Part shown: positions 16,878 to 52,566 of the stretch, one piece after another
Position numbering within the stretch: position 1 is the stretch's first letter
Layout of the letters: every line of letters starts with the position of its first letter
NCBI RefSeq assembly: GCF_024609215.1
Contig: NZ_JANIPD030000004.1
Span: 1 to 52,566, forward strand
DNA: 52,566 nucleotides
Origin: Curtanaerobium respiraculi
GTDB lineage: Bacteria; Actinomycetota; Coriobacteriia; Coriobacteriales; Eggerthellaceae
Direction of reading: 5' to 3'
Notes under the pieces: generated by a model
Database searches by the model: none
What the model was told of the DNA's origin: nothing
Seen by the model: the letters and a program-made list of their open reading frames with translations, nothing else
Position numbers and translations under genes: made by a program

Positions 16878-17867
16878 GACAAAAGGGGCCGGGGCCGAAG
16901 GGGCCGTAGACTTTTGTCACAGGCCGGACAAAGGGGCCGTAGACTTTTGTCACATCCGTTTCCTGCTGGCATTGTAGATCACTGAGCGTCCTATGCCTGT
17001 CAACCGTTCAATCTGCCTGATGCTAAAACCAAAAACGAGAAGCTTGCCGAGCTGCTCGTCCCGATCAGTTTTCGACAGTGTCTTCAAGCTCGTCGCGGTA
17101 TTGGGCGAGACTATTCTATCGGCGACTTTCCTCGCTTGTTCGTCATCCAGCCTGCCGCTCCTGCCATGCTCGGTCAGGCGAATAGGCGCAGGCTTGTCCT
17201 CCTCATGAAAGGACACGAAAGCCTGTTTATTCCCAAAAAGATCCAAGACGAAATTCGTATCGCATATTTTTGCTCTGCTCATGTACTCATGGTAGCTCGA
17301 CCATTCGTAGTCCCCTGCTTGAGCGATTCCAGCTTCTTGGGGATTCAGATGAATGTAACGTACGACATCAAGCAAGTACGCTTCATCATTTATTGGCTCA
17401 CTAAAGTATCTGCCCTGAAAAACATGGCCGACATGTCCATATTTCGAGTTAAACCACCGCGCGTAGTCAGACAAAACTGACTTCATGGCTTTCGGAAGGA
17501 CCCCGAAATCGATCTGAAGAAGCAAATGAACATGATTGCTCATAAGACAATACGCGAGCACCGATGCGCCATTGTCGTCGAAAACTCGTTTGGCTCTGTC
17601 CAAAAAATACTGCCTGCCATCATTGTCTTCGAAAATAATCTGTCGGCCTGCGCCCCGTGCAGTCGCGTGGTACAAATCGAAACTGCTTTGCATCCTTGGC
17701 GCCCGCGGCATAGTCTCCCCCCCTCTCGATCCGATTTCATAACTCTACCAGAAGCCGACGAGAAAGGACCACGGGCAAAGGGACGAAAGGAGACATACCG
17801 GACAGAGGTGACAAAGAGACTAAGGAACCGGAACGGATGACAAAAGTCTACGGTACCTTTGTCCGTA
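16878..17867. mobile_element. RAYT gene with flanking REP-like hairpins
   Basis: The transposase gene is bracketed by inverted copies of one hairpin repeat. Two identical 23-bp units lie at 16898-16920 and 16931-16953, and an inverted copy lies at 17835-17864. Each carries GACAAA...TTTGTC arms around a loop containing AGTCTACGG in one orientation. A further arm at 16878-16885 pairs with 16911-16918. The RAYT stop codon is inside the unit at 16931-16953. The whole lies between dnaE and the ATP synthase operon. Confidence 0.75.
16950..17711 (-). CDS. REP-associated tyrosine transposase (IS200/Y1 family, RAYT)
   Basis: This 253-aa protein has a Y1-type HUH nuclease domain. The metal-binding motif NHVHLLLQ is near residues 58-65, after the strand SVLAYCLMS; the catalytic tyrosine is probably one of those in YARWFNSKYGHVGHVFQGRYF or further on. 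The C-terminal part (SIRQIERLTGIGRSVIYNASR) looks like a helix-turn-helix, as in many RAYTs. These proteins act on REP hairpins rather than on classical terminal repeats. ATG at 17711 follows a GGGGGGGAG site. It appears intact and is the only transposase seen. Confidence 0.88.
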   Translation of the reverse strand: MPRAPRMQSSFDLYHATARGAGRQIIFEDNDGRQYFLDRAKRVFDDNGASVLAYCLMSNHVHLLLQIDFGVLPKAMKSVLSDYARWFNSKYGHVGHVFQGRYFSEPINDEAYLLDVVRYIHLNPQEAGIAQAGDYEWSSYHEYMSRAKICDTNFVLDLFGNKQAFVSFHEEDKPAPIRLTEHGRSGRLDDEQARKVADRIVSPNTATSLKTLSKTDRDEQLGKLLVFGFSIRQIERLTGIGRSVIYNASRKRM

Positions 17868-34344: not shown

Positions 34345-34530
34345 CTATGCTTCGTCTCTGCTTCCTAGGATCTGGATAAAGGCAAGACCGCCCAGTAGGA
34401 GCACAAACCCTGCAACTACCAGTACGGTCGCCACCACATCGCCTAGGCCCGGCACATAAGCACCGCCGAAAATGAGGAAGATGCTTATGATGCATGCCAG
34501 GATCCCTATGATTTTCACGCGTGTTTTCAC
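34345..34530 (-). CDS. 61-residue two-helix membrane protein
   Basis: This small protein was not recognised as a known family. It has two hydrophobic segments (about 7-27 and 32-54) joined by GLGD and ends in a polar tail. The GTG start overlaps the stop of the upstream ABC gene as GTGA, so it is translated with the transporter. Given that arrangement it could be an accessory subunit of the transporter (inference). Confidence 0.7.
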   Translation of the reverse strand: MKTRVKIIGILACIISIFLIFGGAYVPGLGDVVATVLVVAGFVLLLGGLAFIQILGSRDEA

Positions 34531-36281
34531 GATGCTTCCCCCTCGAGCAAGCCGCCAGCATGCTGCTGTGCCGCGACCATAGCAGCATAGCGGCCCCCAG
34601 CGGCAAGTAAGTCAGCATGGGTACCCTGCTCGACAATCTGACCCGCATCGATCATGAGAATCTGGTCCGCATCAACGATCGTCTTCAAGCGGTGCGCGAT
34701 AACCAGGGTGGTTTTACCCCGGCAAAGCGTGCTGATCGCACTTTGAATGGCGCTTTCGTTATCGGCGTCCACGCTCGCGGTAGCCTCATCCAAGATAACG
34801 ATGGGCGCATCCTTCAACAGGCTGCGCGCGATCGAGATGCGTTGCGCTTCACCGCCGGAAAGGCTCGCCCCGCCTTCTCCGATAATCGTGTCGAACCCGT
34901 AGGGCAGATCCATGATGAAGTCGTAGCATCGTGCCTTTTTGGCAACTTCAACCACCTGCTCGTAGGTCGCATCTTCATGCCCGAGGGCGATATTGTTAAA
35001 CACGGTATCGTTAAACAGGTAGACGCATTGGAACACCATCGTCACATTCTCCATGAGCGTGGAAAGCGGCATCTCGCGCACGTCGACCCCACGCACCAGA
35101 ATGCGTCCGGCTTGAATATCCCAGAATCGCGTGAGCACGTTGGCAATGGTGCTTTTGCCACTGCCTGAAGGACCTACAAGCGCCGTCATGCTGCCGCGCG
35201 GCATAGAAAACGTCACATCATCCAGCACCCGTGCCTCGCCATAGCCGAACTCAACCCCTTCGAATGCAATCTCGGGGATGGTGGACTCAGCGGCGGGCAG
35301 GGGACTCTCACCGTCATCGGGAAGCTCGGATTCGTTCATGAGAGCATCGATGCGGTCAAGCGCCGAATTCATGATCGATAGCCGGGCTCCCAGCTGATAC
35401 ACGTGTTTCGACGGTTGGAAAATCAGAAACAGGAACAGGGCGATGCCGGTAAAATAGGGGATGGGCAACGTACCTTCAATGCACATGTGCGCGGATAGCA
35501 ACAATACGATGGCCGTTCCCAGGGCGAATACAATCAAAATAGCACGGTGATAGGGTGTGTAACGCCCTTCGAACTCCAGGTTCTGGTCGGTCATCTGGGC
35601 AAATGAGCGGCGCAGTTCCTTTGCTCCCTCTCCTGCAAGATTGAAGCTTTTTATAATGCCGAAACCTGCTGTGTACTCGATCACAGCCTGCGTCATATCC
35701 TCAAGCGACTGCTGACGCACGTCGCTATTGTAAGTTATACGCTTGGTCATGATGGTGCCGATGCAGACGGCAACGGCCTCGATTGCGATGATGGCCAATC
35801 CAAGCGGCGGGCTTAAGATCAACATGAATACGATGAGGATCGCCTGCGAGAATACGTCGCTGACCGCATCGGCCAGAATCGTCATGCTGTTTTCCTCGAT
35901 GAACACCATGTCCACCGAAAGGATGGAGCTGATCTTGCCGATGTTGCCCGCCGTAAAATAACCCATGGGAAGGCGGCGTAGATGATCGCCGAGCGTAAGG
36001 CGCATATCGGCAAAGAGCTCATAGCCCGAAGCGGACTGCAACTTGTCCACAATATACTGGAACAGCGTTTGCAACATCATCGTGGCAAATCCGATGGCGG
36101 CGAACACGATGGCGATGGATACCGTAGCCGTTCCCTCCAGCAGCATCATGATCGCGAAGATAGCAAGCATGATGGGCATGTTCGCACATAACTGCTTCAG
36201 GAACGAGAACAGGAACGAAAGGCGAATGCGGGGGGCATACGGCCCGGCAACCTTCAGGATCCGATGGACGAAGGCTAGCAT
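34527..36281 (-). CDS. ABC transporter, exporter-fold half-transporter (YbtP/YbtQ-like)
   Basis: This 584-aa protein has six membrane helices (about 20-290), then an ATPase with Walker A GPSGSGKS (370-377), signature LSGGEAQ (474-480) and Walker B ILDEA (496-500). Next to a siderophore operon the closest functional parallel is YbtP/YbtQ of yersiniabactin, which have an exporter fold yet import the metal complex. Its partner is presumably the exporter-like half of the 1097-residue protein upstream. ATG at 36281 follows GAGGAGGTG and overlaps that gene by 7 bp. Confidence 0.87.
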   Translation of the reverse strand: MLAFVHRILKVAGPYAPRIRLSFLFSFLKQLCANMPIMLAIFAIMMLLEGTATVSIAIVFAAIGFATMMLQTLFQYIVDKLQSASGYELFADMRLTLGDHLRRLPMGYFTAGNIGKISSILSVDMVFIEENSMTILADAVSDVFSQAILIVFMLILSPPLGLAIIAIEAVAVCIGTIMTKRITYNSDVRQQSLEDMTQAVIEYTAGFGIIKSFNLAGEGAKELRRSFAQMTDQNLEFEGRYTPYHRAILIVFALGTAIVLLLSAHMCIEGTLPIPYFTGIALFLFLIFQPSKHVYQLGARLSIMNSALDRIDALMNESELPDDGESPLPAAESTIPEIAFEGVEFGYGEARVLDDVTFSMPRGSMTALVGPSGSGKSTIANVLTRFWDIQAGRILVRGVDVREMPLSTLMENVTMVFQCVYLFNDTVFNNIALGHEDATYEQVVEVAKKARCYDFIMDLPYGFDTIIGEGGASLSGGEAQRISIARSLLKDAPIVILDEATASVDADNESAIQSAISTLCRGKTTLVIAHRLKTIVDADQILMIDAGQIVEQGTHADLLAAGGRYAAMVAAQQHAGGLLEGEAS

Positions 36282-39200
36282 GCGCGCACCTCCTCCTCCG
36301 CAGCATCCGAAGAAGAGGACACCGTCCAATCGGCCGCGCTTTCCGACGTTTCCCAAAGGTGATGGTATAGGGGGCTCAGCTGCAAAAGCTGGTCATGGGT
36401 CCCCTGCGCGGATACGACGCCATGGTCTAGCACCAAAATGGTGTCGGCGTTCTGAACGGTGCGCAACCGATGCGCGATGACGATAACCGTCTTACCCTTC
36501 ACCATGTGGTGCACGGCGGCATTTATCTTCTCTTCATTTTCGGGATCAACGAATGCAGTCGCCTCATCCAGCACGACTACGGGAGCGTTTCGCAATATCG
36601 CACGCGCAAGCGCGATGCGCTGCCGCTGCCCGCCCGAAAGCTGCCCTCCCGAACTGCCGGCAAGCGTTTCATAGCCTCGGGGCAATTTTTGCACGAACTC
36701 ATCGCATTGCGCGGCACGCGCTGCGGCAAGCACCTCTTCATCGCTCGCCCCCGGCTTGCCATCGCGAATGTTTTCCAAAATGCTCTTGTTGAAAAGGAAC
36801 ACCTCTTGGGAAACGTATGAGATCTGATTGCCCAACGTCGCCAGATCCATGCTGGCTATATCCTGCCCTCCCAGCGTAATGGCGCCTTCGACCACATCGT
36901 AATAATGGACGAGCAGGCGGGCGATGGTTGACTTACCGCTTCCGCTTGCGCCCACCAACGCCGTCATCTTCCCTTCGGGCGCCGTAAATGAGACCCCGCG
37001 CAGCACTTGCGCACCGCCATAGGTGAACCGCACGCTATCAAATCTCACCGTATGATCGTCCCCCGCAAAGGGCGCGGCGCCCACATGCAATGGGGCGCGA
37101 TCCATCGCTTTCTCGAGCGCTTGGATTTTGAAGTTCACTTGAGGAAGAGTGCCGCCGAACGCCATCAGACGAACGAGCATGGGGCTAATGGCAAAACTCA
37201 TGCACAAAACGATGATGAGCTTCGTCAGGGACATCGTCCCCGACATCACAAACAGCATGCCGAACGGCAGGGTATAGAGCGTGATATTGGCAAGCAGGCT
37301 TCCGTATAGCGACATCCAGGGCCACGTGGATTTATACCATGCGAGAACGAAATCACGGTAGCTGGTGACCGTCTTTTGATAGCGCGATCCCAAATCACCC
37401 TCGCGGTTGAATACCTTTACAACCTCCATGCCGTTCACGAATTCGATGATCATGTTGTTCAAGCGCTTTGAGGCGGCAAAGTAGCTCCCCATGCGATCCA
37501 TGCCCGTCGTGTACATCTGCTTCATGGTGAAATAGCCGAATGCCACCGATATGGCGGTGAATAACGCCAAGCGCCAATCGATAGCGATAAGCACTATCAG
37601 CGTCACTGCCGGCACCGAAATATTTGCGATGCCTTCGGGTATCGCATGGGCAAGGAGCAGCTCTATGGATTCGATATCGTCGGAAAAGTATTTCTTAACC
37701 GCACCCGACCCGATGGCGCGCACGCTGCCGATGGGCTGCGCTTCAAGCTTCTCCTGCAACGATATGCGCAGGTTTTCGAGCGTGTGATACGCCGCCTTAT
37801 GGCTCAGCGTCAAACCGAATAGATAGAGGATGGCATAAGCTATACCCGCAACGGCAACACCGGCTACCGTCCACCATACAGCATCCATGGCCATTGTCTT
37901 GGCCTCGACGAGCCCCTGCAATAACCCCGCGATAAGCGCGTAGGGCACCACTTGAGCAAGCGCCGCCAGGATAAGGACGACCACTGCAGCATAGGTGTAC
38001 TTCTTATACGGCCCCGCGTATTCCAGAATACGCCCGATAGCCCCTATGTTCTTGCGCCGCTTGCTGGTCGAGGCGGTGCTGGGACTCTGGAAGTAGTAGC
38101 GCGCCCTCTCGACGCCTTGATCATCCAAGGGATAAAGGCTGGCAACGCGTCCGTTTTCGATATGGAGCACGTGTGTGCATGATTCCAATACGAGCTCGAA
38201 ATCGTGCGTGACGATCAGCGATACGTCAGCATGCTGATGCGCTTGCCGCAACACGCGCGCGAACGACTGCATACCCGTGCGGTCCAGACCGCTGGTGGGC
38301 TCATCGTAAGCAAGGACCTTCCGCCCGGCGCACAGCGCCGAAGCGATTGCCACCCGTTGCTTTTGGCCGCCCGAGAGCGAGGCGGGATGGCGGTCTGCGG
38401 TGTCTTCGAGGCCAAGGCTGCGCAGCACTCCCATCGCTTCCTCGCGCGTCGTGGAGGTGTTCATCGTGACCTCTTCGATAACGCTATCGGAGAAGAGCTG
38501 CCGATTCACATCCTGCATCACCAGAAAGCTTTGCTCTGCGCGCCTCTTATCGGTTAAGAACGTTCCGTCGAACGCAACGGTCCCCTGCATGGAATTCACG
38601 CCGCACAACGTTTCGACCAGCGTTGATTTCCCTGAACCGTTGTCGCCGATCACGGCGACAACGCTCCCGCTTGGAATACGCAGCTCTTCGATATCGAGGA
38701 TCTGCGTGTCGCCGCGGTTGCATGACAGGTCCAGCGCTTCTATGGCGACATGGGCCGCCTGCCCCGTTGCCGTCGCGCCCATCTGCGATCCTGCGCGCTT
38801 ATTGGCAGGAGGCTGCAGCCCATCGAGGGACGTGGCGCGGAGGCCGAGCGCATCTAGCTCCGCATCGTCTAACGCGAGGAATTCATCGTGGGTATATTCA
38901 CCCACGATGCGGCCATCATCCATATAGATGAACCGGTCAGCAAGATCGGCCATGTAATAGAGCCGATGCTCCGACAAAACGATGGTCTTACCTTGGGCCT
39001 TGATGCGCGCGAGCGCGTCATGCAGGCGCAGTATGGCCTTTTTATCCAAATTCGAGCTCGGCTCGTCCATCACGTAGTGAGGAGGATCGGTAGCATACAC
39101 GCTTCCGCAGGCAATCTGCTGCTTTTCTCCGCCGGAAAGCTCGAAGATATTACGCCCCAGCAGAGCGCCCAGTTTCAGATCGGCCGCGGTAGTCTCCAAG

Positions 39201-39568
39201 CGTGCAGCGATATCCTGTTGGGGAAGCCCTAAATTTTCACAGCCGAATGCCAACTCGCCGGTCGTATCAACGTTGAAAAATTGACTCTTCGGATTCTGGA
39301 ATACGCTTCCTACCAGGTGCGATACTTCATGTAGGGGACCTTCGCTCACGCACATGCCATCAACGATGACCCTGCCTTCCATGACGCCCTCGTAAAATCC
39401 CGGCGCCAGTCCGTTCATCAAACGCGTGACCGTGGTCTTGCCGCATCCCGATCGACCGCACAACACCACGCATTCGCCATTTTCGATAGTGAGGTTCAAA
39501 TCGTCAACGCCTTCGCCCGTACCATGCTCTCCGGCATAGTGGAAGCTGGCGTTCTCGAGCTTGATCAT
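36275..39568 (-). CDS. Triple-ATPase fusion: double ECF ATPase plus exporter-fold half-transporter
   Basis: This 1097-aa protein carries three ABC ATPases. NBD1 (about 1-235) has Walker A GRSGCGKT (38-45), signature LSGGEK (144-149) and DEPSSNLD. NBD2 (about 273-490) has GDNGSGKS (308-315), LSGGQK (398-403) and DEPTSGLD. These match EcfA1/EcfA2. A six-helix membrane domain (about 520-810) and NBD3 (about 838-1075: GASGSGKS 873-880, LSGGQR 977-982, DEATAFVD) form an exporter-fold half-transporter. No stop or frameshift was seen at the joins. ATG at 39568 overlaps the EcfT stop as ATGA. The protein appears to tie an ECF importer to the YbtPQ-like pair. All three ATP sites look intact. Confidence 0.9.
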   Translation of the reverse strand: MIKLENASFHYAGEHGTGEGVDDLNLTIENGECVVLCGRSGCGKTTVTRLMNGLAPGFYEGVMEGRVIVDGMCVSEGPLHEVSHLVGSVFQNPKSQFFNVDTTGELAFGCENLGLPQQDIAARLETTAADLKLGALLGRNIFELSGGEKQQIACGSVYATDPPHYVMDEPSSNLDKKAILRLHDALARIKAQGKTIVLSEHRLYYMADLADRFIYMDDGRIVGEYTHDEFLALDDAELDALGLRATSLDGLQPPANKRAGSQMGATATGQAAHVAIEALDLSCNRGDTQILDIEELRIPSGSVVAVIGDNGSGKSTLVETLCGVNSMQGTVAFDGTFLTDKRRAEQSFLVMQDVNRQLFSDSVIEEVTMNTSTTREEAMGVLRSLGLEDTADRHPASLSGGQKQRVAIASALCAGRKVLAYDEPTSGLDRTGMQSFARVLRQAHQHADVSLIVTHDFELVLESCTHVLHIENGRVASLYPLDDQGVERARYYFQSPSTASTSKRRKNIGAIGRILEYAGPYKKYTYAAVVVLILAALAQVVPYALIAGLLQGLVEAKTMAMDAVWWTVAGVAVAGIAYAILYLFGLTLSHKAAYHTLENLRISLQEKLEAQPIGSVRAIGSGAVKKYFSDDIESIELLLAHAIPEGIANISVPAVTLIVLIAIDWRLALFTAISVAFGYFTMKQMYTTGMDRMGSYFAASKRLNNMIIEFVNGMEVVKVFNREGDLGSRYQKTVTSYRDFVLAWYKSTWPWMSLYGSLLANITLYTLPFGMLFVMSGTMSLTKLIIVLCMSFAISPMLVRLMAFGGTLPQVNFKIQALEKAMDRAPLHVGAAPFAGDDHTVRFDSVRFTYGGAQVLRGVSFTAPEGKMTALVGASGSGKSTIARLLVHYYDVVEGAITLGGQDIASMDLATLGNQISYVSQEVFLFNKSILENIRDGKPGASDEEVLAAARAAQCDEFVQKLPRGYETLAGSSGGQLSGGQRQRIALARAILRNAPVVVLDEATAFVDPENEEKINAAVHHMVKGKTVIVIAHRLRTVQNADTILVLDHGVVSAQGTHDQLLQLSPLYHHLWETSESAADWTVSSSSDAAEEEVRAC

Positions 39569-40302
39569 AGCGCTCCCTTTGTTGCAAAGATGATGATCGC
39601 GAAGATGGCGAGCGCCGCGATAGTGAGGTAGTCAACCCAACGCAGGCGCACCGTTTCATACGCCGAGCGCTTTTCTTCCGAATCGAGCCCGCGCGCAATC
39701 GCGGCGCTGGCGAGCTCTTCCATAACGGACATCGAACTGAACAGCATAGGGATCAAAATGTACTCGATGGTGCACATCGGGTGCGTCACGATAGCGAACG
39801 GATCGGTCCGAATGCCGCGAAACGCCATGGCCTTGCTGATACCCGCCCATTCTTCCTGCACCGTCGGAACGAAACGGAAGAACACCGCAATGGGAATGAC
39901 AACCGATACCGGAAGGTGCATACGCTGGAATGCTGCAAGGAAATCGCTGATATGGGTGGTTTGGACGATGAGCAGGAACGAAGCCATGATGGGAAAGAAA
40001 AAGATCCCGATGAGGACAAGGCCGTTCAGGACATTGCCCACAACACCGGGCTCGATGCCCGATGTGAGGATGCACTCGCGCGTGAACAGCAATAGGAATT
40101 GCAGCGCGAACAGCTTAAGGCCCTCTGCGCGCTTCCCCGAAAGGACGAGAAGCGCGCAGAGAAACGCCCCGAACAGCAATTGCGGCACCAGCTGATAATT
40201 GCTCAGGCTGAGGACGCTGCTCATCACGAAGACGAGCAGCTTGGTTCGGGAATCAAGTTTGATTATGTTCTTGGAATCGTCTCCGTAGGTGAATAGGTCC
40301 AT
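39565..40302 (-). CDS. ECF transporter transmembrane component EcfT
   Basis: This 245-aa membrane protein has five to six helices. The coupling-helix motif ARG is in AIARGLDSEEKRSAYE, with a related FRGIRTDPF. It is the scaffold that links an S component to the ECF ATPases. It lies 16 bp after the S-component gene and overlaps the fused ATPase gene by 4 bp. Confidence 0.87.
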   Translation of the reverse strand: MDLFTYGDDSKNIIKLDSRTKLLVFVMSSVLSLSNYQLVPQLLFGAFLCALLVLSGKRAEGLKLFALQFLLLFTRECILTSGIEPGVVGNVLNGLVLIGIFFFPIMASFLLIVQTTHISDFLAAFQRMHLPVSVVIPIAVFFRFVPTVQEEWAGISKAMAFRGIRTDPFAIVTHPMCTIEYILIPMLFSSMSVMEELASAAIARGLDSEEKRSAYETVRLRWVDYLTIAALAIFAIIIFATKGAL

Positions 40303-40318: not shown

Positions 40319-40936
40319 TTAGGCGATACCGGCTTTGTCGAAATGCTTCTTGGTAAGTCTAATGCCGATGAGGGCGCCCAAAATTCCGCCAACGATGGCA
40401 AGCGCCAAGATGAGCCACCAGATCCAATCGGGGGTGACGGCCGACATGGCATCTGCGGCAGCGGCGCCGTAGGCTTGGCTCATCATCGCGATGAACGAAT
40501 CATGGGCGATGAGAAGCAAGAGGAACGGCATAGCCATGTTCAGGTTGAAAACAGCGTAGGAGCAACCGAGGACAGCCTTTGACTTGAACTTGCCCACGGC
40601 AAGGATAACGCAGGCAACTACGGTGACGATGGCCTCGCAAGCAAACGTATACGGGTTCGACATGCCCGTAGTCAAAAGGAAACCCGCTCCCATGATAACA
40701 ACGGGCATGATGCTCTTCGACCGAAGCACCGCAAGCATATAGACGACGCCAAGCACTGCCCCGACGATAAGGGGTGCTCCAAGGTAGACAACCGGGCTAA
40801 TCGCCGAAGTCGCCATAACGATGGCAACCATCGCCACGATATAGATGGCCGCGAATGCAGCGCTGTAGATAAGCGTGCGCGTGCGGTTGGGAGACGATCC
40901 CGATACAGCGGTTTGGGAAACATCCTGCTTGCTCAT
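40319..40936 (-). CDS. ECF transporter S component (MptD/Trep_Strep-like)
   Basis: This 205-aa protein with about six helices should be the substrate-binding S component. Its pattern resembles the Trep_Strep/MptD group (AIYIVAMVAIVMATS, MGAGFLLTTGMSNPYTFACEA cited in part), whose substrates are mostly undefined. ATG at 40936 has AAAGGAG eight bases upstream. It is the first gene of the transport operon, divergent from the AraC gene. Confidence 0.8.
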   Translation of the reverse strand: MSKQDVSQTAVSGSSPNRTRTLIYSAAFAAIYIVAMVAIVMATSAISPVVYLGAPLIVGAVLGVVYMLAVLRSKSIMPVVIMGAGFLLTTGMSNPYTFACEAIVTVVACVILAVGKFKSKAVLGCSYAVFNLNMAMPFLLLLIAHDSFIAMMSQAYGAAAADAMSAVTPDWIWWLILALAIVGGILGALIGIRLTKKHFDKAGIA

Positions 40937-40986: not shown

Positions 40987-41005
40987 TTAGGCATTGCTAA
41001 CTTAA
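40987..41005. promoter_or_regulatory. DtxR/IdeR-like iron box in the divergent promoter
   Basis: TTAGGCATTGCTAACTTAA matches 13 of 19 positions of the DtxR/IdeR consensus TTAGGTTAGCCTAACCTAA, including TTAGG, CTAAC and the closing TAA. It overlaps the likely -35 region of the minus-strand ECF operon (TATAGT or TATATA as -10) and lies 57 bp before the AraC start. This suggests iron- or metal-dependent repression in addition to AraC control. Confidence 0.5.
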
Positions 41006-41061
41006 GGTTCCCTTGTACGGCTGAATTCGAAATGCAAGCGACCATTTTGAGAGGATCACCG

Positions 41062-42036
41062 ATGCACAACCGATCCCCGATACTCCCTTTCGGCGGAAAT
41101 CCCGATGCCGTTGAAGACCTTCTCGGCGAAAACCTCGGGCATCTCGGCCTTGCACCTGCGGAAAACCAGCGCGGAACAGGCGTGATGTTCACCGCTGATG
41201 ACGTTTCGTCGAGCGGTTGGTTCTACGCTTGGGCGTACGAAGACAAATGCCTGGTGAGCGCATGCGACCTAACGGTGCTTCAATCTACCGTTTCCTCGAT
41301 CGATGCAAACGGATCTGTTGTCTTGCATTCCGGCAGCTCCACCTTGCCCGCCAACGGAGAGGTGCTGGCGTTCGTGCAACCGCCGATGGGCATGGTGGTA
41401 GCACCCCTTCCCGCAGGACTTCGAATCGCGTATGTCGAAGTACGCTACTCCCGCGCCTTCTTCGCAGAATGCCTTTCCCCCCTTTCGGATAGGAAGGTCT
41501 CGAATGTAGCCAAGATGCTCGCTGATATAACGCGGCAATCGGTATGGCCGGCTTGCATCTCGCGCGCATTGCACTCCATAACGAGCACGACAGCCTGCGC
41601 CCGCGAATTAGACCTGCAGCTATTGGGGATTGTTTGCACGATCATGAGCGAGCTCGTACGATTCGGCGAAGCCGAGCTGCCGCAAAGCGCCCACGATCGT
41701 CGTGCCGTGCTGGATGCTATCGCCTTTGCGGATACCCACTACTGCGAAGATATAGGAGCGGTTGATATCATCGCGCACAGCACCTTGGGAGCAACGAAGC
41801 TCAAAGAACTCTTCAAAGCGTTAACGGGGAAGGGCATCGGCGAATACGTACGCTTCCAGCGCCTCAACCGCGCACGCGATCTGCTCGCGTCAGGCAGCAC
41901 CGTGAGCGTTGCGGCTCGTGAAGTCGGATACCGATCGCCTACCAGCTTTTCCACCGCCTACAAGCAGGCGTTCGGGCAGACACCATGCGCCATGCGCACC
42001 GCAGTCCGATACACGGACATGCGAAACGCTCGATAA
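41062..42036 (+). CDS. AraC-family regulator (PchR/YbtA-like)
   Basis: This 324-aa protein has a C-terminal double helix-turn-helix (IIAHSTLGATKLKELFKALTG, cited by its core STLGATKLKELF, then VAAREVGYRSPTSFSTAYKQ). The N-terminal ligand domain is about 200 residues and not otherwise assigned. Regulators of this type (PchR, YbtA) switch on siderophore genes when the metal-loaded siderophore is bound. It is divergent from the transport operon and lies between transport and synthesis genes. ATG at 41062 follows GAGAGGAT; an in-frame ATG ten codons earlier lacks a ribosome site. Confidence 0.9.
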   Translation: MHNRSPILPFGGNPDAVEDLLGENLGHLGLAPAENQRGTGVMFTADDVSSSGWFYAWAYEDKCLVSACDLTVLQSTVSSIDANGSVVLHSGSSTLPANGEVLAFVQPPMGMVVAPLPAGLRIAYVEVRYSRAFFAECLSPLSDRKVSNVAKMLADITRQSVWPACISRALHSITSTTACARELDLQLLGIVCTIMSELVRFGEAELPQSAHDRRAVLDAIAFADTHYCEDIGAVDIIAHSTLGATKLKELFKALTGKGIGEYVRFQRLNRARDLLASGSTVSVAAREVGYRSPTSFSTAYKQAFGQTPCAMRTAVRYTDMRNAR

Positions 42037-42364: not shown

Positions 42365-43021
42365 CTATTTTGATGCGTATCCAACCAGATCAGCATAGGG
42401 GACGATCAGAGGAGCTTCGCGCATCACGGCGCCGTTGCCGCAGACGGCTACACAGGCGTCCGCGACCCATTGGCACCTCACGTCAAATGTGCCGAAATGC
42501 AGGATGTCGCAAGAAAGCAAGCCGGATACATCGGTGTCAAGGGCTGCAGGCAGGCCGCGCCCATCGCGCTTTCCCAAGCTTTCCTTCGCAGCCCACAGCT
42601 TTGCCATGGCGTGCAGCGGTTGAGCGCAGGTGCGCACCGCTTCAAGCTCGTGGCCGGTCAGCACCATTTTTGCCAGTTCCAGATCGGCAAAAGCGTCGGC
42701 ATCGATCTGCTGCATATCGCATCCGATTTCGGAATCGGAAAGAGCGCATACTATCCCCCTTCGGCAGTGCGAGATATTAAAGCATATGCCCGCGATGGCG
42801 GGCTTCCCCCAAGGGCCGTAGGAGGGGATGGGCGCGTTCGACCATCCCAATTCGTCGTATAAGGCATAGGCGAAGAGCACCCAGGATGCGACGCACAGTC
42901 GCCGGTCGATCGCGTGATGATAGCGAAGCGCCCTGCCTCTGCGCGAAGGAGGCAGCAGGGGAAGCAGGGCTTCGCATGATGCATCATCGAACCGTGCAAT
43001 GTCGGTGAACACGTAGATCAT
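42365..43021 (-). CDS. 4'-phosphopantetheinyl transferase (Sfp type)
   Basis: This 218-aa enzyme attaches phosphopantetheine to the carrier-protein serines of the NRPSs. It has the Sfp-family motifs FNISHC (81-86), IGCDMQQID (99-107, with the metal-binding Asp) and WAAKESLGK (143-151). ATG at 43021 lies 7 bp after the thioesterase stop. The 100 codons of open frame upstream overlap the thioesterase gene and are not used. It is the last gene of the biosynthetic operon. Confidence 0.88.
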   Translation of the reverse strand: MIYVFTDIARFDDASCEALLPLLPPSRRGRALRYHHAIDRRLCVASWVLFAYALYDELGWSNAPIPSYGPWGKPAIAGICFNISHCRRGIVCALSDSEIGCDMQQIDADAFADLELAKMVLTGHELEAVRTCAQPLHAMAKLWAAKESLGKRDGRGLPAALDTDVSGLLSCDILHFGTFDVRCQWVADACVAVCGNGAVMREAPLIVPYADLVGYASK

Positions 43022-43028
43022 GGCTGCA

Positions 43029-43784
43029 TCAGCATGCCACCGCACGCTGCGAAAGCTGATCGGCGATACAGCGCTCAACCTTCGGAGCGCTTTCCCCGTA
43101 CAGGAAGAAATGGCTGCCCGGAAAGGAAAACTGACTAAAATCCGCCGATGTGACAAGGCTCCAGCGTAGCATCGCCTGAGGATTAGCGTCCATATCATGC
43201 ATGCCCGCCAGCGCAACGATGGGGATATCAAGACGTTCCCCACGGTACCGATAGCTTTCATGCAAGCGGTAATCGCTATAGATAATCGGCAAGAAGACCT
43301 GCGAAAATGCGGGATCGTCAATCACTTCACGGGGCGTGGCCCCAATCCGGACCATTTCCTCTTTAAGTGCCCCCATACCCTGCGACGTCCTATAGCCTAT
43401 CGGATCCTGGTCGCACGGCGCATGTCGGCCCGCCACGATAAGCTGTTCGAGAGGCGAATCGTATTCGGATCGCAGGATAACAGCCACCTGGAAGGCAAGC
43501 GCGCATCCCAGGCTATGGCCGAATAACGATGCGCCAGACGTTCCCAGAGTCGCGATGCCTCGGGCGATAGCATGTGCTGTGCTATCGAAATCAACCGAAC
43601 ATGCTTGGCCGATCGAACAATAGTGGCCTGGAAGTTCAACCGGGATGGTATCAACCCCCGAAAAGCGTCGCAGCCACGTTCGAAACGCGAGCACACTGCC
43701 CCCGGCATGGTGAAAGCAGTATAGACGCTTGGGCAACGTGGGAATTTCATCCGTTAACGGGAACATATCGTCTGAATATCGCAT
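43029..43784 (-). CDS. Type II thioesterase (PchC/YbtT-like)
   Basis: This 251-aa alpha/beta hydrolase has the nucleophile Ser in LFGHSLGC and a catalytic His in FPGSHFFLYG; the start LYCFHHAGGSV is typical. In NRPS systems such enzymes clear wrongly loaded carrier proteins. ATG at 43784 lies 3 bp after the methyltransferase stop. Confidence 0.9.
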   Translation of the reverse strand: MRYSDDMFPLTDEIPTLPKRLYCFHHAGGSVLAFRTWLRRFSGVDTIPVELPGHYCSIGQACSVDFDSTAHAIARGIATLGTSGASLFGHSLGCALAFQVAVILRSEYDSPLEQLIVAGRHAPCDQDPIGYRTSQGMGALKEEMVRIGATPREVIDDPAFSQVFLPIIYSDYRLHESYRYRGERLDIPIVALAGMHDMDANPQAMLRWSLVTSADFSQFSFPGSHFFLYGESAPKVERCIADQLSQRAVAC

Positions 43785-43787
43785 GTA

Positions 43788-44504
43788 CTACACCCACTCC
43801 ACCACGTAGATAGCCTCGCCCCTCTTTGTGCAGGAAAAGCCCTCTCCCGCTTCCCTGGAAAGCTGATCGAGTCCGAACGTATGCCACGTCCTGACAACCT
43901 CATGCTGGTCAATCGTATGGCGATCGTCGATGATACGGTAAATGGTCCTCCAGGTCATTTCGTCGCCGGCCGCCGGCTCGCCGGATATCCACGATTCGTA
44001 TCTGCGTGTTCCGATGCGGCGTTGACCGGCAAGTCGCCTGGGAACATAGGTGGGATGCTCCACGCCCATAAGTTCAACAACCACCACACCATCCGGGGAC
44101 AGAAGCCGGCGAACCGTTTGCCAAAAAACCGTCCGCTCGTCCGCTTCCATATGCCCTAAAACGCCAAAGGCGAGTATGGCGTCGACCGAAGATGCGGCAT
44201 CTGGCAGCTCGCCAATCGATTCGAAGATCGTTACGCAGCCATCGAGCGCACCTTGCGTGATGCGGGCCGCAAGCGCGGCGCGCATTCCATCTGAAGGCTC
44301 CACGGCGCTGATGGTGGCATACGGCAGCGCTTCATGGGCTGCTGCTATCGTCAATCCCGTTCCCGATCCGATATCCACCACCGCGGCAGTAGAAGGGCAG
44401 TATTCGGAAAGGATTTTCTGCAGGATCGGCCCGCGGGTTTTCCAATGCTCCACCGCCGATACCTCGTACAAAAACAGGTCATCATCGTATGCTGCTGCAG
44501 CCAT
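43788..44504 (-). CDS. SAM-dependent methyltransferase
   Basis: This 238-aa class I methyltransferase has motif I VVDIGSGTGLTIAAA, followed by ISAVEPSDGM and a motif IV region DAILAFGVLGHM. ATG at 44504 shares one base with the reductase stop (TGATG). The PchF-like NRPS already has an internal methyltransferase domain, so this stand-alone enzyme suggests a second methylation of the product or of a precursor (inference). The acceptor is unknown. Confidence 0.85.
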   Translation of the reverse strand: MAAAAYDDDLFLYEVSAVEHWKTRGPILQKILSEYCPSTAAVVDIGSGTGLTIAAAHEALPYATISAVEPSDGMRAALAARITQGALDGCVTIFESIGELPDAASSVDAILAFGVLGHMEADERTVFWQTVRRLLSPDGVVVVELMGVEHPTYVPRRLAGQRRIGTRRYESWISGEPAAGDEMTWRTIYRIIDDRHTIDQHEVVRTWHTFGLDQLSREAGEGFSCTKRGEAIYVVEWV

Positions 44505-45547
44505 CAAAATGCTCCTTGCATCATCGTTCTTATAGTTCCAACCCGGAAGGCGGGCCCCGTATAGAACCCCTTGCCCATTGGCTCGACATCCGACGGAACG
44601 TCCGTTCCCGCCGGGGGAAGTTGAGCCGTCATATTCTGCCAAGCCGTACAGGCAGCAATCTGATATTGCAGACGCGCGGGCTCATGAGCATGCGCCTCAA
44701 ACAGATCGAGCATCGTTTTCACCCCATCCGCCCATTCTTGGGCAAGCATTTCCCCATGAGAAGCAGCGGGCGGTTCGAGCACCTCCACGCCGCCCTCGAC
44801 GTTCTTCTCGAAATCCCGGCGATCGACATGGAGGCGCGGCGTCCAGAGCAGGGGACCGAATACGTCGTTTAACGCGAGCACGCCGCTGGGAACATATACG
44901 CGAAACTGCATGAATGCGGGAGCGTAATTATCCGGATCGGTATAGCTCATTTCGTTATACAGATTAACGCTCACCGGCACGCCCGAAACCGTACCTGACA
45001 GCCTCTCGAACCCCCCTAAGCGACCTTCATACGCCAGCGAAAACGGCTTGAGGCCACCCGCCAAGCGGCCAAGCACATTCACGAACGGATACGCAACATG
45101 AAGGCTTGTCGTCGCCTCGATAAGCAAGATCGGCTCATGGCCCCTCAGCTGTTTCGTGGCGGATATCAACGCCGCCACCGATCGCAGATAGGGGTAGAAC
45201 GCATTGACGGAATAGTGGACCTGGGCCTTTTTAGCAGCCGCCATCAGCTCGATCATTTCGCGAAGGTGAACTGGCTGCTCCTGCACAACGTGTATCCCTT
45301 TTGAAATGCATGCGCGTGCAAGTTCGCTACCCGCCCCTCCCGTTATCCCCGATCGTATGACAACGCAAGCGAGATCGATATCGGTAGGCACTTCTTCGGG
45401 AGGAAAACAGGGCACCCCCAGTTCGTGTGAGAGCTTTTGGGAGTCAGCACCCCCTCTGCCGACGATTCCCACCAGGTCGTGGCGCGATGCGCGGACACCT
45501 TCGGCGTACACACGGCCAAATGTCGCCCCCGCTACAACGATTCTCAT
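44504..45547 (-). CDS. Thiazolinyl imide reductase (PchG/YbtU/Irp3-like)
   Basis: This 347-aa NAD(P)H-dependent oxidoreductase of the Gfo/Idh/MocA fold should reduce an enzyme-bound thiazoline to thiazolidine. The N-terminal nucleotide-binding region is VVAGATFGRVYAEGV; GIHVVQEQPVHLREM and the long C-terminal sheet domain (with NLYNEMSYTDPDNYAPAFMQ) fit the family. ATG at 45547 overlaps the previous stop as ATGA. Confidence 0.9.
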   Translation of the reverse strand: MRIVVAGATFGRVYAEGVRASRHDLVGIVGRGGADSQKLSHELGVPCFPPEEVPTDIDLACVVIRSGITGGAGSELARACISKGIHVVQEQPVHLREMIELMAAAKKAQVHYSVNAFYPYLRSVAALISATKQLRGHEPILLIEATTSLHVAYPFVNVLGRLAGGLKPFSLAYEGRLGGFERLSGTVSGVPVSVNLYNEMSYTDPDNYAPAFMQFRVYVPSGVLALNDVFGPLLWTPRLHVDRRDFEKNVEGGVEVLEPPAASHGEMLAQEWADGVKTMLDLFEAHAHEPARLQYQIAACTAWQNMTAQLPPAGTDVPSDVEPMGKGFYTGPAFRVGTIRTMMQGAF

Positions 45548-46554
45548 AGGGCACCCTCTTCGGCTTCATACAATGCATCGGGCCGCACCTGTGAAACCGC
45601 AGCGAATCCCGCATCATCCACCGCCCGAAGGACCCGGGCAGGGTTGAGGACGTCGCAGGCGAAATGGGCACCCGCATCTACGATTCCGTCCAAGATCGCA
45701 CGCAGGGCAAGAACAGCTACTTGGGCGGTGAGGCCGTACCCGTCAATGGCGGTGATCACCAACGCGTCATCGGAAGACGCAAGCACGATGGCATAGAACT
45801 CCTGTGCCGCAACAAGGCTCGCTTTCGAGGCAAGTTGCAATTTAACAGCCGCCTCATCCTTATCAGCACCCTGAAGATGTGTCATCACCTGCTTCATCGC
45901 ATCGCCCACCAGTACGTTGCTCCAGGTAAGGTTCTGTATGTGAAGCTCGCCAGCAAGCGCGCGCGCCTCTTCGGTGAGAAACGGATAGGCGGTGGAACCC
46001 GCCGGGTATACTTGCGGGGGCACGGACTCGCTCCGAGGCGCTTGAGCGATCTCGCCGTTCCGCAGCGCGCAGCCCCCAAGCCCATATCCCTCTTGTTCGG
46101 CAACGCTTGCTATCAGATCGCGGCTGGCAGCAGGAGAAACCGATTGCAAGCCGCCGGAAAACGCCGTGACCCCCCATTTCGCCGCAGGTGAGATATCCAC
46201 GAGATAGCGCAGGGCCAGACCGCTCAGCCCGGGAAGCATCCCCGCTCCGATAATAAGGGGGATTTCGGGTTTCAGATTATCGATAGCATACGCAAGTGGA
46301 GCCTCACCCGCAACATCGACAAGAGGCACGTTCGCATCTACAGCTGCGTTTGCGATACCTTGGCTGAACTCACACGAGGGACCGATGCAGTTCAGAACCA
46401 CATCGCAACCTTCCATAAAGCTGCAAAGCGAATCTTTCGAGGATGCATCGACCCTCGCGCCTTGCGTGAGCGAACCGAGCTTTACCTGCTGATCCTGAAG
46501 CAAGCGCGCAGCGGCGCTGCCTACTGCTCCATTTGCACCCATAATGCCAATCAC
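45544..46554 (-). CDS. Saccharopine-dehydrogenase-like NAD(P)-binding oxidoreductase
   Basis: This 336-aa protein has a Rossmann start (MIGIMGANGAVGSAAARLL), a Cys-containing catalytic region (VVLNCIGPSCEFSQGI) and a long C-terminal domain like those of saccharopine dehydrogenases. No pyochelin or yersiniabactin gene corresponds to it, as far as I know. A similar gene may occur in the equibactin locus of Streptococcus equi (from memory, unverified). It could form or cleave a C-N bond in an opine-like step, or reduce a second imine. GTG at 46554 overlaps the NRPS stop as GTGA. Confidence 0.75.
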   Translation of the reverse strand: MIGIMGANGAVGSAAARLLQDQQVKLGSLTQGARVDASSKDSLCSFMEGCDVVLNCIGPSCEFSQGIANAAVDANVPLVDVAGEAPLAYAIDNLKPEIPLIIGAGMLPGLSGLALRYLVDISPAAKWGVTAFSGGLQSVSPAASRDLIASVAEQEGYGLGGCALRNGEIAQAPRSESVPPQVYPAGSTAYPFLTEEARALAGELHIQNLTWSNVLVGDAMKQVMTHLQGADKDEAAVKLQLASKASLVAAQEFYAIVLASSDDALVITAIDGYGLTAQVAVLALRAILDGIVDAGAHFACDVLNPARVLRAVDDAGFAAVSQVRPDALYEAEEGAL

Positions 46555-49500
46555 AGCAACCCCGCTTTCGCAGCCACGTCTTCCACATACTGGTTGGAAA
46601 GGCAGGTGAAATGCCGCCCCGAGATCCGGTGAATCGACAGATCGCCCAATACAAGATCCTCCCAGAAATCGCGCGCGCTATTCCCAAGCACGGTGAACCC
46701 ATTCTCCTGATCGGCAACTTCCAGGTAGGTCACATCGCCGAAATACGGCTCGGGACGATGAAGGGAAACCGCCGTGGTGCATTTACTGAAGAACGGATAT
46801 TGAGCAACGAGGCTTGCGATCCCCGCTTCGTCATCCGTTGCGTAGGAAACGATATTGCGCAACCGTTGCTCTTGCGGTGTGCATTTGAGCGTCTGCAACC
46901 ATGCGGGCGCTTCCTGATCAGCAGAACCGACGGCAAGATGGGTCGGATCCCGCTTAAGCGAAGCGGTGACAAGATCGAACAGGCTCTCAGAATCATAGCC
47001 TAGCGCCTGGACATCCGCATGCTTTTGCTGGGCAAATAAGAATTCGATAAGGATATCATCATCCACGATGAAGGGATATCCATAGCCGCTGATGATGATA
47101 AGCCGCTTTACGGAGAGCCCCCGTTCAAGCAGATAGCGGGCGGATTCCATCGCAATCATGCCACCCATGCAGAACCCTACCAACGTCAGTTTGGCAGGAT
47201 CTTCCCTCTGCTCGAGGATCTCCCCATATCGCGCGCCAAGATCTTGGATAAGCGTATGGGCATCCATAGCTTCGTATGCAGCGCGATCGTCGCATTGGAA
47301 GCCCCAAGCGGGAGTACGCTCGCCGATGAGGTTAAGCAGGTGGCTATACGCGTTAAGGGTCCCCGTGCCTTCGTGGAAGAATACCAGTTTGCCTTCGTCT
47401 GAGGCCTTATTCAGAGCGACATAGCACCCCTGCTTGCCGGAGGCTTGCCCCTGCTTCCTCCCGCCCGTAATCGTCTGGGCGATCCCCGAAACGGTCGGAT
47501 TGCGCATAACGCCCCTTAGCAATCGCTCCCATTCGCATCTATTTGCTTCGGGAATGGACTTGCGCAATACGCCGATGAGCCGGGTGACCTGAAGCGAATC
47601 GCCTCCGAGGTTGAAGAAGTCATCGTCGGGACCAACCCCTCTGCACTCGAGTACCTCTTCGAAGGCATGGGCGATCCGAGCCTCTAAGCTCCCCTCTTCC
47701 ATCGATTCGGCAATCGAAGTCGCTGCGGAAGCGCACATCCGCTCACATTCCGCCGTCAACCGCTTGCGATCGACCTTGCCATTCTTCGTGGTGGGAAGCT
47801 CATCGAGAACGCGGATGATATCGGGGACCATATAGGAGGGAAGGATACCGCTCACCTGCTCTTTTATTTCCTCGCCGGTAAAGCGGGCGCGTGCCCCTTT
47901 AGCTTGGGCGACGAATAGACCTTGGCACAGTGCATCCCGAAGCTGTTGAGATGGTAGGCAGGCAACCTCATCATACCCCGCTGCGCGGCATTTTTCATTC
48001 CACTGGGCAGCGGAGAGGAACGGGGAACCGAACCGAGCGCGATCATCGGTAAAACCGGCATTCAGAGATTTTTGAAAATCGATGCTCGCCATCATCGAAG
48101 GCCGTTCAACCGTCGCCTCGATAAAGACAAGCGCGCCGCCTGGTGCGATGAGGCCTTTAATACGGGAAAGAGCTTCTTCGATATGGGAAGCGTTGTGGAG
48201 GACATTGGCCGCAAAAACGAGATCGAATGAATTCTGATCAAAGCCCTGCTCAAGGAAGTCCTCGTTGATGTCGAGGCGAGCGTATTGGATCCACTCCCGT
48301 TGCCCGTATCGCTCGCGAGCTTCTTGGAAGAAGAAGGGACTGACATCGGTATACCAATAGCGCTTGCAATGGCCGTCAAGCGCAGCGATGAGAGCATCGC
48401 TGCTTCCCCCCGAACCGGCGCCGATTTCCAGCACGCGCATGGCCTGATTGCGATCACTCAGGCGAAGGGCGAGCTTCGCCAGCAGCGTATTCAGAAACTC
48501 CGCAGGAGGGTTCTTTCCGTAGGCCGCCTGGGCAATATGCGTGTCACCTTGCGGAAAGAGCAACGAGAGCGCCTGCTTTTCCCCTTTCAGTAAAGAGGGC
48601 AGCGATTGGCAACTTAAGCGAAGGTACTCGACGAGCTCTTCGCGATACCCCGCTTCCACCCCCACGTTCCGCAACTGCTCCCAACGGTCGTCGGTATCCC
48701 ACCCCCACTCTTTTTCTCCGAGCGTGAACCGGTCTTCGCTGCGTATGGCCCATCCCCGTGCAACAAGCGCAGCAAGCCAGCGTTTGACCAGATTACGATA
48801 GGTATCGCGTACTTGGAGCGCAGCGATGGCATCATCGCTCGTGAAGGTGCGTTGCTGCACCGCGTGGGAAAGAAGCGCGGCAATGGCGCACAGGGCCGTT
48901 TCATCGACCTTTTTCCGGTATGCATCAAGCTTTTCCCACGGGAGGGAGGACGACGCCAACCCGTCCTCTTCTACGCCAGCGAGCAGCGCCGTAAGGTCCT
49001 CGCGGGAAGATGAGGGACGCACGGCGGGAACAACCGCCGCGCATAAGCGCTTATCTTCCCCCACCACTACGGCAGCGCCCTCGCCCACAAGCTCGCTTGA
49101 GACCAGTGCCGCTTCGACTTCGCCTAATTCAACACGATATCCCAGTAGCTTTACCTGCTGGTCCATGCGACCCAAGAACTCGATTTCCCCATTGCCCAGG
49201 TACCTGCCGATATCGCCCGTAAGGTAGCAACGCACGCCATTACGCATGCAGAATTTCTCCGCCGTAAGTTCAGGATTGCCCGCATATCCTTGGGCGAGGC
49301 TCCGGCCCATGATGATGATCTCGCCGGGCACCCACGTAGGACGCGAGCGCAATGCTGTGTCAACAACATCCATCTGCTGATTCGAAAGAGGTCGCCCATA
49401 GGGAATGCTCGGGGCATCCGGCGCAACAACATCGATCGCATGATAGACCGACCAGATGCCCGCCTCAGTTGCTCCGCCAAGACTCAGCAATTGGAGCCCG

Positions 49501-51917: not shown

Positions 51918-52566
51918 TACAGAACGCCTTCCTCAAAATCGGAAATCCCGCTTTGTTCGATCCACGCAGCCATTTCTGCGACGGTGGGTCCCTCCATTAA
52001 TGCGCGCAACGGTAATTTCACCCCTGTAGTGCTTTCGACCGCACTTATAAGCCGCATAGCACGCAAGCTATCGCCTCCCAATTCAAAGAAATTGGCATGG
52101 CGCCCCACCTGGGCGCATCCAAGGGTATCCCGCCAGAGGCCTGCTAGGCAGAGCTCCGTTTCCCCTTGGGGCGGGTCGGAGGACCGGCGGTCGTCCATCG
52201 CCTGAAACGCAAGTGTGATCAGCTCCGATTTATTCGTCTTCCCGTTATCCGTCACCGGTAGATCCGCTATAGCCTGTACGCGCGGTTGGGCATATGAAGG
52301 AAGGCGTTCGGCCAAAGCGCCTTCCACCTGATCTGGCGTGCTGCCATCGGTAAGTACCACAAAGCAGAAGAGTGCCTTGAGTCCCCGCTTATCCGCCAAG
52401 ATGGCTGCTGCTCTTCGCACTAGCCCGCTCGCGACGCACGCCGCCTCGATCTCCCCCAGCTCCACGCGGTGGCCGCGCACCTTCACCTGCTGCTGGGACT
52501 GGCGCCTCCCCAGGAACTCGATGGTGCCGTCGGGCCAGAAGCGCCCCTCGTCGCCGGTGCGGTACC
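51917..52566 (-). CDS. NRPS, 3' part (PchE-like): A-domain end and PCP
   Basis: About 216 C-terminal residues are visible; the 5' end is beyond the window. The frame enters at YRTGDEGRFWPDG (A7), passes FLGRR and VKVRGHRVELGEIEAAC (A8), an A10-like DLPVTDNGKTNKSEL and a carrier domain with FFELGGDSLRAM, and stops 51917-51919. It ends right after the carrier, as PchE does, and the next protein starts with a docking domain. At A8 the usual GRxDxQVK is RRQSQQQVK, so the hinge aspartate is missing and two residues are added. The first 140 bases or so at the edge have far higher GC3 than the rest of the gene. Confidence 0.9.
   Translation of the reverse strand, partial: YRTGDEGRFWPDGTIEFLGRRQSQQQVKVRGHRVELGEIEAACVASGLVRRAAAILADKRGLKALFCFVVLTDGSTPDQVEGALAERLPSYAQPRVQAIADLPVTDNGKTNKSELITLAFQAMDDRRSSDPPQGETELCLAGLWRDTLGCAQVGRHANFFELGGDSLRAMRLISAVESTTGVKLPLRALMEGPTVAEMAAWIEQSGISDFEEGVL

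Follow-up and report, generated by a model that had tools for sequence, protein, structure and literature searches.

The stretch of DNA analysed here, referred to as the window, is an entire contig of 52566 bases (NZ_JANIPD030000004.1) from the genome of Curtanaerobium respiraculi, labelled G000 in our set. On the minus strand, positions 36275..39568 hold a single unbroken open reading frame (ORF) of 1097 codons, from ATG to stop, which encodes two ATPases of the energy-coupling factor (ECF) type fused to a half-transporter (HT1) of the ATP-binding cassette (ABC) exporter fold. According to Pfam, NCBIfam, an AlphaFold2 model, a motif check and alignments, EcfA1 covers residues 1-244, a variable linker 245-272, EcfA2 273-477 and a conserved junction 478-511, followed by a six-helix transmembrane domain (TMD; 512-825) and a nucleotide-binding domain (NBD; 841-1072). 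The fused gene belongs to a tight operon (40936-34527) that runs from an S component through EcfT and the fused protein to a second half-transporter, HT2. A first-pass annotation had read the frame as a single-polypeptide fusion of two EcfA proteins and a half-transporter, and the intact ORF, the domain searches and relatives with the same fusion bear this out.

Pfam places ABC_tran three times and ABC_membrane once (residues 531-791) on the fused protein. Its N-terminal portion is claimed by ECF ATPase models and its C-terminal portion by MsbA/CydD-type models: the best alignment of the NCBIfam models ECF_ATPase_2 and ECF_ATPase_1 lies at residues about 1-248, with a score for the whole protein that sums three domains and so inflates the comparison with the cut-off, while the MsbA/CydD-type NCBIfam models align best at ~513-1073. 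Both EcfA domains match EcfA-EcfA proteins from unfused cassettes. The earlier claim of three intact sets of ATPase motifs holds, as Walker A (38, 308 and 873), signature (144, 398 and 977) and Walker B (165, 418 and 997) all follow the consensus, as do the three H-loops and the Q-loop in all three ATPase domains. The AlphaFold2 single-chain model of the fusion, built with 17 fused homologues, has a mean predicted local distance difference test (pLDDT) value of 74 and a predicted template modelling score (pTM) of 0.57, and shows six helical membrane segments at 510-822 flanked by ATPase-like stretches. In a fold search with this model, rows 1-37 are two-domain ABCB-type chains with TM-scores of at most 0.42; the best single half-transporter among the matches listed is YbtP (8vsi_A) at rank 38, with a TM-score of 0.77 by target length and 34% identity. 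Sequence comparison of HT1 with the PDB also puts YbtP first among single half-transporters, with 323.5 bits against 287.1 for YbtQ and 284.8 for IrtA (best 60 of 74 matches); longer ABCB-type chains with two ATPase domains score higher than these. With six transmembrane helices and an NBD on one chain and a partner gene adjoining, HT1 has the make-up of a type IV (exporter-fold) half-transporter, and the proposed combination of EcfA/EcfA with a YbtPQ-like half is upheld by YbtP being its best single match in sequence and in fold among the matches listed.

The other three proteins of the operon complete the picture. HT2 (34527..36281, minus strand, 584 aa) consists of a TMD and an NBD with consensus Walker A, signature, Walker B and H-loop motifs. 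Its start was set at the Met used by homologues, its open frame reaching further to a TTG at 36356, and with the 584-aa start it overlaps the fused gene by 7 bp. EcfT (39565..40302, minus strand) overlaps the fused gene by 4 bp at the other end, as the first-pass annotation had said of both neighbours. It belongs to the CbiQ family (PF02361, 57.6 bits at a cut-off of 25), although its score against the NCBIfam CbiQ model is far below that model's cut-off. EcfT proteins of the CbiQ family carry two Ala-Arg-Gly-type motifs; here FRG stands at residue 162 and ARG at 204. The S component (40319..40936, minus strand) is of the Trep_Strep family (PF09605, 116.7 bits at a cut-off of 28.7). It was assigned to the Pfam family only, the match to TIGR02185 (MptD family) having 69.6 bits under a cut-off of 76.45. 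Its likely start is the second Met (40936), preceded by a Shine-Dalgarno-like AAGGAG and close to the starts of homologues; the open frame extends to 40972. The model of the S component is all-helical (pLDDT 86.9), and the one plausible kind of neighbour that Foldseek gave for it, ranked first, is another ECF S component (5edl; probability 0.99, E 0.08, TM-score 0.40), a fold match that is weak by itself. PADLOC gave no match on the S component and EcfT. Two EcfA-type ATPases, a CbiQ-family EcfT and a small helical membrane S component together make up an ECF transporter.

Orthologous fusions with 51-62% identity occur in Bacillota, Coriobacteriia and Spirochaetota. A scan of named species with the region from junction to membrane domain confirmed 376 relatives and kept the best 80, of which 19 are fused and 61 have no EcfA part in the HT1 frame; one of the latter (L106) is not fully judgeable, as its contig starts 15 bases before the frame. 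The 19 fused loci comprise 12 from Bacillota, five from Coriobacteriia and two from Treponema (L040 and L044). A scan of 138 genomes of the same family, scoring the five best candidates per genome, added two fused orthologues, with 61% and 58% identity, and in G116 a fusion that is more distant. At least 11 of 395 genomes of the same order encode a full-length fusion of the main clade without internal stop, and distant fusions occur in G116 and G407; these counts are lower bounds because two candidates per genome were scored. The named and the order counts overlap by at least five genomes (L034/G174, L035/G277, L036/G275, L037/G175 and L042/G035). Whole-genome searches in 13 of the organisms with fused loci returned a nearly full-length match in 12 (in G146 the single stop counted is the terminal one, judged by position); in the thirteenth, the match runs from residue 375 on inside a 1166-aa open frame. 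Wherever the contig is long enough, the fused loci have the layout S-T-[A-A-HT]-HT, Treponema excepted. Both Treponema loci keep the fused protein and HT2; in T. vincentii (L040) S and T lie ~6.5 kb from the fused gene, and in T. putidum no S or T was found near the fused gene with those of the window as queries. The T. vincentii copy has no ATG, GTG or TTG between the upstream stop and Walker A and may use a rare start or be damaged.

The joint between EcfA2 and the membrane domain is strongly conserved in length. It measures exactly 34 residues in 26 of 26 rows of the main clade, which contain 24 distinct junction sequences and include a row on a 3.17-Mb contig (G101:C1). Near-duplicates among these rows are L108, which is 100% identical to L035, and L111, which is 99.3% identical to L037; L042 stems from the same genome as L021/G035 and was omitted from this check and from the trees described below. 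In an alignment of 17 of the proteins (A3, without L040 and L041, which are included in the junction check), mean pairwise identity is 52.7% in the junction and 58.3% in the membrane domain. The linker between EcfA1 and EcfA2, in the same alignment, is anywhere between 17 and 41 residues long and has a mean pairwise identity of 28.6%. By eye, certain unfused EcfA2 proteins (L015, L066) end in a C-terminal tail similar to the first part of the junction (YPLD..G..R...YF), so that the added connector would amount to ~16 residues. The window copy has no ATG, GTG or TTG at residues 495-525, thus an ordinary internal start, from which a separate HT1 could be made, is unavailable there. In the main clade, the ATG at the unfused start position (residue 510) is kept in 10 of 26 rows, two of which have a 4-base Shine-Dalgarno-like match before it. 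A joint this short and of fixed length argues that the two transporters adjoin in a set geometry.

The gene order S-T-AA-HT-HT, where AA denotes the EcfA-EcfA gene, recurs with and without fusion, and the unfused five-gene cassette is the common state. The first-pass annotation had called ECF modules and YbtPQ-type pairs normally separate machines. They are indeed made as separate polypeptides, but the genes of the unfused set cluster together repeatedly, and genes of this kind are known beside the same type of non-ribosomal peptide synthetase (NRPS) as in the window in Streptococcus equi and Clostridioides difficile. The 2.5-Mb genome G000 alone encodes eight Trep_Strep S components (contigs C12, C19, C9, C22, C15, C2 with two, and C13), most with T, AA and half-transporter genes nearby, a large set of ECF plus exporter-fold cassettes that presumably serve different ligands; the S family is present in 30 of 100 genomes of the same order. 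In G000 the cassettes of the window and of C19 are fused, separate AA genes lie on C15, C9, C22, C2 and C13, and a cassette on C11 is cut by the contig start. The C19 fusion (L009:7264-10539) is a 1091-aa frame with a 13-residue junction and a TetR regulator upstream. As a side observation, the EcfA-EcfA gene of the second C2 cassette (L016:5197-6798, G000:C2:53196-54797) is shortened, appears to have a frame shift and continues into the S component within a 533-aa frame; the cassette has either decayed or contains an unusual fusion of EcfA and S.

In two unfused loci (L067, L072) the stop codon of AA directly abuts the start codon of HT in frame, thus little more than losing that stop would join the two genes. 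A quick tree of 64 selected rows out of 153 HT1-like sequences, with a long-branch warning that includes C19, needs three changes for the fused state: in the main clade (26 rows), in G116, which is sister to the unfused G040, and in C19. A more careful tree of 35 chosen rows, in which no long end branches were flagged, also needs three changes, and none of 200 bootstrap trees needs only one. In the approximately unbiased (AU) test, for which the groups were named with the quick tree already known, a single clade of all fused rows was rejected (p 1.8e-12), and with it a single origin; holding the fused rows together without C19 was rejected as well (p 4e-4). Three gains are the simplest reading because each fused group is nested among unfused ones, and the differing junction lengths of the main clade, G116 and C19 (34, 16 and 13 residues) accord with separate origins. 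Thus, the fusion seems to have arisen at least three times. Further distant fusions without internal stop, outside these trees, lie at G140:C68:6437-9559 (41%) and G407:C50:11520-14687 (36%) and may be additional independent events.

Upstream of the operon, the window holds a regulator and a biosynthetic cluster. A gene for an AraC-family regulator (41032..42036, plus strand, by profile matches) diverges from the transporter operon. It is followed on the minus strand by genes for a 4'-phosphopantetheinyl transferase (42365..43321, by Pfam), which overlaps the next ORF and whose true start is probably further in, a type II thioesterase (43029..43784, by Pfam), a methyltransferase (43788..44642), a thiazolinyl imide reductase of the Irp3/PchG type (44504..45547; TIGR01761, 223.2 bits at a cut-off of 188.8) and a saccharopine-dehydrogenase-like NAD(P)-binding protein (45544..46554), which has 24.5 bits in Pfam, below the cut-off of 25.1, and 33-34% identity to the equivalent gene in three relatives. 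A PchF-like NRPS (46551..51917, minus strand) comprises a docking domain, condensation/cyclisation, adenylation with an embedded methyltransferase, a peptidyl carrier protein (PCP) and a thioesterase. The C-terminal part of a further NRPS (51917..52486, minus strand; adenylation C-terminus and PCP) is cut by the contig end. The other two condensation domains of G000, at C2:292856-294019 near a contig end and at C32:147-1289 near a contig start, are possibly the missing pieces of this NRPS cluster. Elsewhere in the window, an ORF at 16950-17711 resembles, by eye from the sequence alone, a REP-associated (Y1-type) transposase.

The divergent promoter, 95 bp that separate the S gene from the AraC gene, contains a palindrome at 40987..41005 (no strand assigned) that agrees in 14 of 19 positions with what we take to be the DtxR/IdeR consensus, the best score in the window. 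Among 2000 random 95-bp pieces of the window, of unmatched AT content, one reached 14. The site is suggestive of iron control of the window operon. Before 14 other fused operons the best sites reach 9-14 of 19 with no clear excess over random pieces of the same loci (means 9.6-10.6, maxima 11-15; base composition of the promoters unmatched), and a strict DtxR pattern with up to three mismatches gave no match.

The window has the composition of an equibactin-type transport cassette, with ECF-like and YbtPQ-like genes next to a thiazoline NRPS cluster that includes an Irp3-type reductase. In the available part of the report on Streptococcus equi, the equibactin locus on ICESe2 combines a thiazoline-siderophore NRPS, a thiazoline reductase and a saccharopine-dehydrogenase-like gene with the permease/ATPase genes eqbHIJ and the YbtPQ-like eqbKL (eqbH-L) as in the window, whereas its transport proteins are separate and its regulator is the DtxR-like EqbA (PMC3672683). 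By analogy, eqbHIJ probably encodes an ECF module. A similar inventory is given for 023_CTn1 of Clostridioides difficile clade 3, whose gene table, as far as accessible, names two ABC proteins, an AraC regulator, an ABC ATPase, an Ecf (cobalt) transporter, a membrane protein, a thiazolinyl imide reductase and a saccharopine dehydrogenase, with the genes separate in the table, unlike in the window (PMC6814731). The Corynebacterium aurimucosum plasmid NZ_CP068167.1 (MptD/Trep_Strep ECF cassette) has the same five genes, closely spaced and in the same order as the window, and differs in that AA and HT1 are two genes. YbtPQ of Yersinia and IrtAB of mycobacteria share the type IV fold of HT1, and both are siderophore importers; to our knowledge, neither has an ECF part fused or annotated. 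The ECF module LhaSTA of Staphylococcus lugdunensis, like that of the window an ECF module but haem-specific, serves iron acquisition and is iron-regulated, and the part of the source at hand mentions no half-transporter pair (PMC7299338).

In the order, thiazolinyl reductases like that of the window occur in 5 of 395 genomes at six places. ECF and HT genes accompany the thiazoline NRPS at three of five testable places, G000 included; the sixth place, in G089, is cut at the contig end and was excluded. At the second place in G062 the order is AraC, T, AA, S, HT, HT, then NRPS, and in G050 we found S, T, AA and an HT that is cut by the stretch; both are unfused. Two observations stand beside this set: in G062 a gene for a DtxR-type iron repressor (L133:8348-8737) directly adjoins a YbtPQ-like pair near a thiazoline NRPS cluster, in a fetched stretch that has no S or T genes like those of the window, and in Pseudobutyrivibrio xylanivorans (L085, 8977-18972) two ORFs that share 24-26% identity with the window NRPS come after unfused HT, HT, T and AA genes, another possible transporter-NRPS pairing.

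We propose that the S component, EcfT, the fused protein and HT2 form a single membrane assembly with four ATPase domains. The ECF part would capture an iron-chelate or other metal-chelate via the S component and import it. The YbtPQ-like heterodimer would be held beside it by the fixed-length joint, which links EcfA2, at its C-terminal tail, to the N-terminal elbow of the half-transporter. This heterodimer would act on the same ligand, by importing it in parallel or by returning the stripped chelator to the outside. In G000 the ligand would most likely be a thiazoline product of the adjoining NRPS, similar to pyochelin or yersiniabactin. One ECF plus YbtPQ-like assembly handling one metal-chelate is, in our view, the best explanation overall, and we give it an even chance of being correct. 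Its core, the fixed complex of ECF module and YbtPQ-like heterodimer already suggested by the first-pass annotation, appears to be the best-supported mechanism, because repeated fusion together with a fixed junction length is good indirect evidence; as a prediction from sequence it is about evenly balanced. The handover of metal between two transport steps, which the annotation had also raised, is one option alongside import/import and import/export.

Several results weigh against this proposal. The closest unfused HT1-HT2 pairs often lack ECF genes matching the S and T of the window in the flanks covered. The first place in G062 and the place in G005 have an HT pair, and the stretches fetched contain no S or T like those of the window; a double-ATPase gene beside a binding protein and permeases, recognised by eye, suggests a peptide/nickel-type importer in place of the ECF module. 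HT2 is not specifically YbtQ-like, as Sav1866 (275.9 bits) and MsbA (up to 274.5) score slightly above YbtQ (263.3) among the best 60 of 119 matches to PDB sequences. The model of the fusion is single-chain and of moderate quality only. Genes of NRPS clusters were found in the flanks covered of none of 22 other fused loci (the 19 named ones plus G101, G181 and G191, several of them on short contigs). The fused clade in its entirety thus cannot be tied to a self-made siderophore, and an NRPS partnership as its general trait is unsupported. The word metallophore in the first-pass annotation is therefore well supported at the window locus, by the thiazoline NRPS neighbours and the parallels in other genomes, but not for the clade overall. 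Finally, as far as the available text of the S. equi study goes, eqbKL deletion did not prevent the iron-overload phenotype and eqbKL was dispensable for import, whereas eqbHIJ deletion blocked most equibactin-dependent iron accumulation (PMC3672683). Thus, in S. equi the two halves can act separately.

This genetic separability fits the view that the fusion fixes only expression ratio and placement of two independently working transporters of one iron regulon, with uncoupled cycles. In unfused relatives, neighbouring genes overlap or have little or no gap between them (in L067 and L072 the stop directly meets the next ATG in frame), one stop loss is enough for a fusion, and many HT pairs have no recognisable ECF genes close by. 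However, three independent fusions and a junction of fixed length and conserved sequence in 26 of 26 main-clade rows from three phyla exceed what co-expression needs, and we consider this view rather unlikely. An import/export pair, in which the ECF half imports the metal-chelate and the exporter-fold half expels new or recycled apo-chelator, draws on the type IV fold and on S. equi, where the accessible part of the source shows eqbHIJ to be the importer and reports that the streptonigrin sensitivity conferred by culture supernatant was twofold lower for the eqbKL mutant than for the wild type, for which its authors suggest efflux (PMC3672683). Against this, HT1 is closest, among the matches listed, to YbtP and IrtA, proteins described in siderophore import, and fused cassettes without NRPS nearby have no obvious product of their own to export, unless a captured chelator is recycled or one is made elsewhere in the genome; such a division of labour seems doubtful. 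The ligand could also be haem or a xenosiderophore, with the NRPS cluster a chance neighbour in this genome. The 22 flanks without NRPS genes would agree with that, and haem-specific ECF transporters exist, LhaSTA being the example in the part of the literature available (PMC7299338). Unfused genes of the same kind nevertheless lie inside thiazoline NRPS clusters in G050 and at the second place in G062, and so do like genes in S. equi (PMC3672683) and C. difficile (PMC6814731), going by the accessible parts of these sources. We thus regard a haem or xenosiderophore ligand as a minority prospect. A stricter version of our own proposal is a four-ATPase metal pump in which ECF and YbtPQ-like transport are mechanically coupled via the EcfA2-elbow joint, for example bringing the loaded chelator in and the stripped one out at once; we think such coupling improbable. 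A sequencing or assembly artefact, or a missed stop near codon 500, can be dismissed with near certainty, because fused relatives with the identical junction length (26 of 26 main-clade rows) exist in independent assemblies from three phyla.

Searches of the literature for the fusion, the S family and a machine of ECF and YbtPQ-like parts, covering titles and the beginnings of abstracts, with most subscription papers outside, found no such fusion described. The parts and the cassette are already known; within the scope of these searches, no account came up of a fusion with three ATPases, of how far it has spread, of its having arisen repeatedly or of the fixed joint.

In conclusion, genes for ECF importers and for YbtPQ-like pairs often occur together, several times close to iron and metallophore genes, and the two parts have different phenotypes in S. 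equi genetics, going by the accessible part of the report (PMC3672683). The recurrent covalent fusion argues that they sit side by side, and with its conserved joint it offers a single-chain handle with which the complex can be purified, imaged and mutated. A coupled pump, if true, would amount to an ABC machine with two strokes that combines two classes of transporter and that fusion has re-invented at least three times. The fused protein is found in Coriobacteriia, Clostridia and Treponema and could represent a widespread uptake route of anaerobes.

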